This document shows, one piece after another, positions 1,506 through 4,992 of a stretch of DNA of 36,021 nt (positions within the stretch are counted from its first letter, which is position 1; every line of letters begins with the position of its first letter). The DNA lies in the NCBI RefSeq assembly GCF_027052235.1, contig NZ_JALUFF010000050.1:1-36021 (forward strand). The letters run 5' to 3'. A model generated the notes under the pieces. That model was not told the DNA's origin. It did no database searches and worked only from the letters and a program-made list of their open reading frames with translations. Made by a program: the position numbers and the translations under genes. This DNA is from Thermococcus sp. (GTDB lineage: Archaea; Methanobacteriota_B; Thermococci; Thermococcales; Thermococcaceae).

Positions 1506-1646
1506 TCACCACTCGTCGTCCTCTTCTTCCCAGTCCTCTTCTTCCCACTCCTCCTCGTCCCACTCCTCGTCCTCCCATTCCTCAAGCTCGAACTCCTCGT
1601 CGAGCTCTTCCTCCTCTTCGACCTTTTTCTTTTTAGGAGGTTCCAT
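1506..1646 (-). CDS. Highly acidic, Trp-rich 46-residue miniprotein
   Basis: On the minus strand an ATG at 1646 follows a good ribosome binding site (GGTGGGAGT immediately upstream) and opens a 46-codon frame ending in TGA at 1506. The product starts MEPPKKKKVEEEEELDEEFE and continues with four Trp residues set in Glu/Asp runs (EEW-EDEEW-DEEEW-EEEDW), ending EEEDDEW. Well over half the residues are Glu or Asp; the only basic residues are the four Lys of the N-terminal patch. A TATA-like element (rc of 1681-1690) lies about 40 nt upstream of the start. The frame is short but its start signals, promoter and strongly biased, ordered composition argue that it is real. Function unknown. Acidic tails of this kind often bind basic proteins or act as nucleic acid mimics; that is only inference. 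Confidence 0.68.
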   Translation of the reverse strand: MEPPKKKKVEEEEELDEEFELEEWEDEEWDEEEWEEEDWEEEDDEW

Positions 1647-1732: not shown

Positions 1733-2488
1733 ATGAGGGTGGCGATAGTAACGACCGACCCGAGGGTCTACTACAGGGCCACTAAGGTGCTGAAGGAGTA
1801 CAGGATACCCTTTCTCAGCCTCCGGGTCGGCGAGAGGATTCCCTACGACGTTGAGGTCATCCTTACGGGTGAGAGGGATAAAGTGGAGTTCCCCGTGAAG
1901 GTCATCGTGAGGGACGAGAACTTCATAGACGAGCTCCTCGCGAGGCTAGAAGGCAGGGAGAGGTTTAGGAAGGTCTTCATAGCGATAGACCCCGGCGAGA
2001 GGCCGGGCCTGAGCGTTGTAGCCGATGGCAAGGTCGTTGAGGTTCATCAGCTCAAGAGCCCTAGGGACGTTGAGCCCGTCCTTAGCCTCCTTGAGAAATA
2101 TCCTGGGGCGAGGATAAAGGTCGGCCACGGGGCGAAGAGGCAGAGGGTCATGATGCTCAAGGCCCTCGGAAGGCTCCTCGGCTACGACTACCCGATAATC
2201 GTGGTCAACGAGACAGGTACAACTCCCAAGGTCGGCGGGGTTGAGGGTTCGGCAGTGCTGGATATAGTCGCGTCCATAAACATCGGCCTCAGGCCCGGGA
2301 GAGAGGTTACGATAGGCGAGCTTCTGGAGGTTAAGGAGCCCACGAAGCGCGAGATAGAGGACATAAAGAGGAGGAGTCGTGAGCTGAGCGGAAACATCAC
2401 GATAACCTCAAGGCTTGCCCGGGAAGTTGCTCTCGGCAACCTGACCCTTGAGGAGGCGATAGAACTTCACAGGAGGCGTTTAAGATGA
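1733..2488 (+). CDS. RuvC/YqgF-like (RNase H fold) protein upstream of cdc48
   Basis: The product has 251 residues. The start at 1733 ([15 protein letters not shown]) is chosen because it lies about 26 nt after a TATA box; the frame is open further upstream, but that stretch carries the promoter. The second half has the signature spacing of RuvC/YqgF-type RNase H folds: AIDPGERPG (first Asp in DPG), then VVNETGTTP (Glu in the second strand), then [14 protein letters not shown] (late Asp on a helix). This resembles the catalytic acid triad of that superfamily. The stop overlaps the Cdc48 start by four bases (ATGA), so the two are probably translated together. The substrate is unknown; it may be a Holliday-junction or RNA-processing nuclease, or an inactive relative. 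The fold is an inference from motifs. Confidence 0.7.
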
Positions 2489-4992
2489 TATTTGGTAAGG
2501 ATTCGGATGAGAAGGTTGAGGAGGTAAAGCTCCGCGTTGCAGAGGCCCTGAAGAGGGACGTGGGAAGGGGCATAGTGCGCTTCGACAAGAAGTACCAAAA
2601 AAAGCTGGGCGTCGAGCCGGGCGATATAGTGGCCCTGATAGGCGAAAGGACGACCGCCGCGATAGTGGCAAACCCCCATCCGGACGACAGGGGACTGGAT
2701 ATAATCAGGATGGACGGCTACACGAGGAGAAACGCTGGAGTAAGCATAGGCGACTACGTGACGGTCAGAAAGGCCGAGGTTCACGAGGCCAAGAAGGTCG
2801 TCTTAGCTCCGGCTCAGAAGGGCGTCTTCATCCAGATACCGGGGGATGTCGTGAAGGGCAACCTCCTCGGAAGGCCGGTGGTCAAGGGGGACCTCCTCGT
2901 TGCGAGCAGCAGGAGCGAGACCTACTACAGCTCACCCTTCGACGAGCTCTTCAGGGGGCTTTTTGAGGCCATGCCCTTCGGCTTCGGCGAACTCAAGTTC
3001 GTCGTTGTAAACACCGTCCCCAAGGGGATAGTCCAGATAACCTACAACACCGAGGTTGAGGTTCTCCCCCAGGCTGTGGAGGTGAGGGAGGAGAGCATAC
3101 CGGAGGTCACCTACGAGGACATCGGTGGCCTCGACGAGGCCATCCAGAAAATCCGCGAGATGGTCGAGCTGCCCCTCAAGCACCCGGAGCTCTTCGAGAG
3201 GCTCGGAATTGAACCGCCGAAAGGAGTCCTCCTCTATGGCCCGCCGGGAACGGGTAAGACTTTACTCGCTAAGGCAGTAGCCAACGAGGCCAACGCCCAT
3301 TTCATAGCGATAAACGGGCCGGAAATAATGAGCAAGTTCTACGGTGAGAGTGAGGAGCGCCTAAGGGAGATATTCAAAGAGGCTGAGGAGAACGCTCCGA
3401 GCATAATCTTCATCGACGAGATAGACGCGATAGCCCCCAAGAGAGAGGAAGTGGTTGGCGAGGTCGAGAAGAGGGTCGTTTCACAGCTCCTTACGCTGAT
3501 GGACGGTCTCAAGAGCCGTGGAAAGGTCATAGTCATCGCCGCGACCAACAGGCCTGACGCGATTGATCCGGCATTGAGGAGGCCGGGAAGGTTTGACAGG
3601 GAGATCGAGGTCGGCGTCCCGGACAAGCAGGGAAGGAAGGAGATACTCCAGATACACACCAGAGGAATGCCCCTTGAACCGGACTACGATAAGGGCGAGG
3701 TATTGAGGATCCTCAGGGAGATGCGCGAGAAGGGCTCCTTCGATGCCAAGAGGATAGAAAAGCTCATGGAGCGGGTTGAGAAGGCCACCACCGAGGAGAA
3801 AATCAAGGAGATACTGAAGAGCGAGGGCGAGATATACGCTGAAGTTAGGAACAGGCTCATAGACAGAATGCTTGAGGAGCTGGCCGAGAAGACCCACGGC
3901 TTCGTGGGAGCTGACTTAGCGGCGCTCGCCAGGGAAGCGGCTATGGTCGTCCTCAGGAGGCTCATAAACGAGGGCAAGATAAACCCCGAGCAGGAGAAGA
4001 TACCCCCAGAGGTTCTGAGCGAGCTCCGCGTCAGGAAGGAGGACTTCTACGAGGCGTTAAAGATGGTCGAGCCTTCAGCCCTCAGGGAAGTCCTCATAGA
4101 GGTTCCAAACGTCCACTGGGAAGACATAGGCGGACTAGAGAACGTAAAGCAGGAACTCAGGGAAGCAGTCGAATGGCCACTCAAGTACCCGAAGGCCTTC
4201 CAGAGGCTCGGCATCGAACCGCCGAGGGGTGTTCTCCTCTACGGGCCGCCGGGAACGGGTAAGACCTTACTAGCGAAGGCTGTTGCAACCGAGAGCGAGG
4301 CCAACTTCATAGGCATTAGAGGGCCGGAAGTACTGAGCAAGTGGGTTGGCGAGAGCGAGAAGAGGGTGAGGGAGATATTCAGGAAGGCTAGACAAGCTGC
4401 ACCAACGGTGGTCTTCATCGACGAGATAGACGCGATAGCTCCCGCGAGGGGAATGGAGGGCGACCGCGTCACCGACAGGCTCATCAACCAGCTCCTCACC
4501 GAGATGGACGGAATCCAGGAGAACAGCGGTGTCGTCGTCATTGGAGCCACCAACAGGCCCGACATCATTGATCCGGCCTTGCTTAGACCCGGGCGCTTCG
4601 ACAGGCTCATCCTCGTTCCAGCGCCCGATGAGAAGGCGAGACTTGAAATACTCAAAGTCCACACGAGGCGCGTCCCGCTGGCCGAGGATGTCAACCTCCG
4701 CGAGCTGGCGAAGAAGACAGAAGGCTACAGCGGTGCAGACCTTGAGGCCCTTGTAAGGGAGGCGGCGCTGAGGGCGATGAGGAGGGTCATGAGGGAACTG
4801 CCGAGGGAGCTCGTGGAAAGGGAGGACGAGAGGTTCCTGGAGAGGCTCAAGGTCTCAAGGAGGGACTTCGAGGAGGCCCTGAAGAAGGTTAAGCCGAGCA
4901 TAACCCCCTACATGGTCGAATACTACAAGAACTTCGAGGAGAAGAGGGCCAAGAAGCCCGGCAGGGAGGGGGAGGAGTACTACACCTTCTGA
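2485..4992 (+). CDS. cdc48: Cdc48/VCP-type AAA ATPase with two ATPase domains
   Basis: This 835-residue protein is the archaeal homologue of p97/Cdc48, a hexameric unfoldase that threads proteins through its pore using ATP. Order of domains: an N-terminal substrate/adaptor domain (about 1-200), first AAA domain with Walker A GPPGTGKT at 252-259 and Walker B IIFIDEID, and second AAA domain with GPPGTGKT at 587-594 and VVFIDEID. Both domains keep arginine-rich GRFDR segments. An extra stretch of about 60 charged residues (roughly 395-455) sits in the first ATPase domain before its C-terminal helices, as in other Thermococcales Cdc48 proteins. The C-terminus ends in EEYYTF, which is not a standard HbYX proteasome-docking motif. 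The gene follows the RuvC-like gene with a 4-base overlap. Confidence 0.96.

Follow-up and report, generated by a model that had tools for sequence, protein, structure and literature searches.

The 36,021-nucleotide stretch of Thermococcus sp. DNA analysed here (hereafter the window) carries on its minus strand an open reading frame whose product, MEPPKKKKVEEEEELDEEFELEEWEDEEWDEEEWEEEDWEEEDDEW, contains 30 Asp/Glu, 4 Lys and 5 Trp among its 46 residues. The locus raises the question of whether so short and so biased a frame is a gene and, if it is, what a protein of this kind could do.

The miniprotein gene and its conservation

The frame begins with ATG, ends with TGA and is preceded by a BRE/TATA-like element and a ribosome binding site (Table 1), which, judging by their positions, are sensibly placed for archaeal promoter and ribosome binding elements. 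Both elements are repeated in the upstream regions of the orthologues, where they usually take the form of GAAAAAAGTTTATAAGCC and a G-rich site. The gene structure proposed in a first-pass annotation, namely a 46-codon minus-strand gene with a TATA element, a ribosome binding site and a stop, is thus confirmed by the open reading frame itself and by the recurrence of the upstream elements. A six-frame scan of the window found no second 40-residue stretch of this kind. A 123-aa open reading frame with a Pro/Arg-rich end at 1265-1636 of the plus strand lies partly antisense to the miniprotein gene; it mirrors the acidic codons and is unlikely to be a gene.

Table 1. Features of the miniprotein locus and its surroundings in the window.
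Feature	Position	Strand	Basis or remark
csx1 (CARF-HEPN), cut by contig start	2-1039	+	Profile match
Miniprotein CDS, family type A	1506..1646	-	Open reading frame, frame conservation, synonymous excess
Acidic tail, Trp 24, 29, 34, 39, 46	1509..1577	-	C-terminal Trp conserved
Basic N-terminal tract EPPKKKK (residues 2-8)	1623..1643	-	Conserved among aligned members
Ribosome binding site GGTGGGAG	1655-1648	-	Sequence
BRE/TATA-like promoter element AAAACTTATA	1688-1679	-	Sequence; 32 bases upstream of ATG
251-aa protein, divergent neighbour	1733..2488	+	Stop overlaps cdc48 start by ATGA
CDC48-family AAA ATPase (cdc48), in divergent operon	2485..4992	+	TIGR01243, 1312.7 bits

For the orthologue survey, the stretch upstream of the 251-aa gene was fetched in 57 further genomes of the genus and the window was added. 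In 45 of these 58 genomes, all of which have the 251-aa gene, a matching frame of 44-56 codons with an M-x-PP-K-rich start and a similar tail occupies the same divergent place in the same orientation. Compared with its nearest relative (G077), the window gene shows 9 synonymous changes per 16 sites, 1 non-synonymous change per 119 sites and one whole-codon indel. The identity between the two is 91% in the coding region and only 45% on the 3' side of the stop; in the upstream part, where the promoters lie and the neighbour gene begins, it is 88%. Among 14 close pairs, 6, 8 and 96 changes fall on codon positions 1, 2 and 3, respectively. The median dN/dS ratio is 0.15, and the ratio is below 1 in 99.7% of the 361 usable pairs, which are not independent of each other. 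The conserved homologous frame, whose absence from related genomes the first-pass annotation had named as the outcome that would speak against its proposal, therefore exists, and its conservation goes beyond chance because the frame persists in 45 of the 58 genomes, dN/dS lies well below 1 and third-position changes dominate. With a conserved frame and a synonymous excess in its relatives, the miniprotein gene is a protein-coding gene under strong purifying selection. We have hardly any doubt that the gene and its family are real.

The 251-aa neighbour gene occurs in every near-complete genome of the genus and in 58 of the 61 overall, and its product has no Pfam or NCBIfam match. A model of it gave weak RNase H-like matches (TsaB, TerL nuclease and resolvase, best E 0.0023), from which an RNase H-like fold may be proposed with low confidence. 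As these matches are weak, the fold was left out of functional inference.

Distribution of the family and its loci

We defined the family by an M-x-PP-K/R-rich start followed by an acidic tail with several Trp, a description that the window protein fits, and searched for it with profiles A1-A4 and the start pattern. Members were found in six genera of Thermococcaceae. The other four families of the class, represented by 21 genomes, yielded none, and neither did 23 genomes from a different class. The phylum search gave the 115 genomes of the class search again and so added nothing. The sensitivity of the search was incomplete: one profile or another missed some members that had been seen directly, and most Pyrococcus genomes gave no match in a search that does not detect all divergent copies. 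The family has no matching model in Pfam, NCBIfam or PHROGs, a plasmid search returned no match for the miniprotein and a literature search found no publication that describes it.

Loci of the family are of at least four kinds. Type A, the type of the window gene, adjoins the operon of the 251-aa gene and cdc48 and in many cases has moeA downstream. Type B of the same genus has the form M(Y)YPPKKKVxPKV...EEEFDPLxxVEEAYED plus a tail and in most genomes is divergent from a gene for a PLP-dependent enzyme, with an MFS-like transporter alongside; in other genera, the type B place holds a MQPPKKKKKVEDYEEEPLV-like form. A similarity of type B to cytochrome bc1 subunit 6 (E 0.014) comes from an acidic run plus DPL, and we judged it to be due to chance. 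Type C lies between the genes for a metallophosphatase-domain protein and a phosphate permease. The Pyrococcus type is found directly upstream of nip7. In the P. abyssi-like genome G088 (L200 2437-2613), the source of which was inferred in part from the identity of its nip7 product with PDB 2p38, the gene of a 58-aa member ends in GATGAGTGGTGA, which contains the ATG of nip7. This overlap, as read from the sequence, suggests translational coupling. The basic N-terminal tract is nearly alike in types A, B and C.

The comparison of types A and B turned out to be suggestive. Type A is missing or not intact in 13 of the genomes with the 251-aa gene, and 11 of these have type B (G011, G083, G021, G007, G026, G022, G023, G019, G003, G062 and G028). 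The remaining two have incomplete assemblies: completeness is 86% for G074, the sister of a B-bearing genome, and 74% for G072. Conversely, type B was detected in only 8 of the 45 A-bearing genomes (Fisher p 2e-5, not corrected for kinship). The genome G007 (L141) contains a type A copy, in which the ATG has become AGG and the tail is shortened, and an intact type B elsewhere. On a tree of the neighbour and CDC48, type A changes at least six times, and the supported independent pairs are too few for a formal test of significance. Every near-complete Thermococcus genome examined keeps at least one of the two copies. As 11 of the 13 A-less genomes have type B elsewhere and the other two are incomplete, the types look interchangeable and trans-acting, which is suggestive rather than proven. 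Action in trans is also argued by the change of neighbours among the loci (cdc48/moeA, PLP enzyme/MFS, phosphatase/phosphate permease and nip7). If the interchangeability is right, selection acts on the shared anatomy rather than on the neighbour genes.

Anatomy of the protein and its proposed role

Among the aligned members, P4 is invariant and P3, K5 and K6 are kept in at least 90%. At the other end, the Trp columns near the C-terminus are kept in 41-45 of the 45 orthologues, and the final residue is Trp in 42 of them. Between these ends, in-frame indels change the length of the tail and the number of Trp-acid repeats, with the PPKK start and the terminal Trp remaining constant. The regular acid-Trp spacing noted earlier holds for the window protein, where it is 5, 5, 5 and 7, but it is not conserved: across the 45 orthologues the spacing is mostly 4, 5 or 6, and WEEEW (spacing 4) is frequent. 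The strict 5-5-5 pattern is, as far as the alignment goes, local to the window sequence.

AlphaFold predicted one lone helix (mean pLDDT 71.8, pTM 0.31), which is what charged disordered chains often give. The Trp residues do not share a helical face (0.353 vs 0.370 for random), and an amphipathic helix with a Trp face is hence unsupported. The best fit is probably a disordered multivalent tail, which is favoured because indels vary the tail length while the PPKK start and the terminal Trp stay.

Such an anatomy, i.e. an M-x-PP-(K/R)-rich start and then a polyanionic tail of about 35-60 residues with several Trp/Phe anchors, fits the earlier idea of a binding tail for basic proteins or a nucleic acid mimic. 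This class of explanation appears to be the best available, and it indicates no specific partner. We tentatively favour a mechanism in which the miniprotein, a probably disordered polyanion bearing aromatic anchors, would shield or escort some basic protein that binds nucleic acids. The miniprotein would work in trans as a flexible, multivalent ligand of a basic surface; its carboxylates would mimic the phosphate backbone, its Trp side chains would occupy hydrophobic pockets, and in this way it could shield, escort or release an abundant nucleic-acid-binding protein. The tail may bind the K-tract for as long as no partner or nucleic acid competes with it. We infer that both the ligand class and the escort role are probably of this kind. 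The most likely clients would be a histone or a ribosomal protein, followed by the RNA polymerase cleft; as the P. abyssi-like member overlaps nip7, a ribosome biogenesis gene, ribosomal proteins would be equally good clients.

Three points count against this mechanism. The neighbours are unlike between loci, so genome context names no pathway. Other archaea handle histones, Alba and ribosomal proteins without this family, and Pyrococcus, with its few matches, also has histones and ribosomes. The acidic domain of APLF provides a precedent: its aromatic anchors sit in histone pockets, and it imitates histone-DNA contacts and chaperones histones (PMC9328677). The composition and the conserved Trp columns of the miniprotein likewise amount to an acidic stretch, interrupted by aromatic anchors, that might mimic DNA towards a basic protein, which is insufficient to place it among the histone chaperones. 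In APLF-type proteins, moreover, this stretch belongs to a larger protein, whereas histone binding by the miniprotein is only putative.

Alternative readings and significance

The region could act in cis, serving the adjacent genes as a purine-rich leader or a non-coding RNA, and not through a protein. Its purine-rich tract and conserved promoter would agree with this, but 96 of the 110 changes between close pairs affect the third codon position, the aligned orthologues stay in frame with the low median dN/dS given above, paralogues occur at unrelated loci and no Rfam family reaches its gathering score in the miniprotein region, which makes a cis-acting element extremely improbable. The anti-nuclease or CRISPR regulatory role that the first-pass annotation allowed for started from the CRISPR-linked genes nearby, and csx1 does adjoin the miniprotein gene in the window. 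This arrangement was seen only in this genome, however: csx1 is absent from beside the gene in all the fetched relatives, which have other genes in its place, the nearest one having moeA and serS. As the csx1 linkage is not conserved and no phage family in PHROGs matches, we do not class the miniprotein as CRISPR-associated or anti-CRISPR, and we consider such a role unsupported and very improbable.

A more substantial alternative is a DSS1-like hub, in which a small disordered acidic/Trp protein would use W-x3-W acidic motifs to bind a ubiquitin-like modifier or the CDC48/proteasome machinery, and/or would compete with DNA on recombination proteins. The ubiquitin motif of DSS1 requires at least two aromatics along with acids, the aromatics preferably being Trp at a distance of about three residues (PMC9381478), and the frequent WEEEW of the family fits it. 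Type A is divergent from the cdc48 operon in most genomes, but types B and C and the Pyrococcus type are not beside cdc48. SEM1/DSS1 is among the few weak PDB matches of the family profile, with an E of 1.2-1.4 that is not significant; hhalign gave probabilities of 18% and 9%, and the Pfam model DSS1_SEM1 (PF05160), which gives human DSS1 82 bits, matches no family member. DSS1/SEM1, a protein of about 70 aa with many binding partners, is also very acidic and disordered with recurring Trp/Phe in acid runs. The miniprotein family differs from it in having a PP-K/R-rich start and no non-acidic C-terminal part and in its restriction to Thermococcaceae. We did not assign the family to DSS1/SEM1, and a DSS1-like function is unlikely but not negligible. 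The miniprotein might also be an RNA polymerase-associated nucleic acid mimic that, like the acidic tail of Bacillus delta, aids the release of RNA or DNA from the polymerase. Delta also has a lysine tract ahead of its acidic tail, which we counted in favour of this reading together with the polyanionic tail of the miniprotein. The acidic C-terminal region of delta is disordered, has a net charge of -47 and displaces DNA from RNA polymerase (PMC7749165). The two proteins are thus alike as disordered polyanions that may compete with nucleic acid, but delta has a folded docking domain, which the miniprotein lacks, and no rpo gene or other link to RNA polymerase was present among the neighbours examined. 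This function is distinctly unlikely.

The amino-group carrier protein LysW is likewise small and acidic with an E/D-W C-terminal tail, but the miniprotein has no zinc ribbon. A weak match of the single miniprotein sequence to a zinc-ribbon relative in G044 was driven by composition and was lost with the family profile. That LysW-like zinc-ribbon protein (G044:C3:181237, L144) has the tail EEDWEEEEDF, and a second weak match lies 0.6 kb away.

The escort of a basic protein by a disordered polyanion remains our preferred reading. As of 2021, no homologue of a histone chaperone was known from archaea (PMC7990501). It is possible, if still doubtful, that archaeal chromatin or ribosomal proteins have in this family their first dedicated chaperone of a disordered, acidic kind, or that the family works with CDC48 as a functional counterpart of DSS1 in archaea. 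Its short length and low complexity let a gene that is nearly ubiquitous in the genus escape the protein family databases. A conserved acidic/Trp family in the genetically tractable Thermococcus is a concrete candidate for a histone-chaperone-like factor or a DSS1-like hub.
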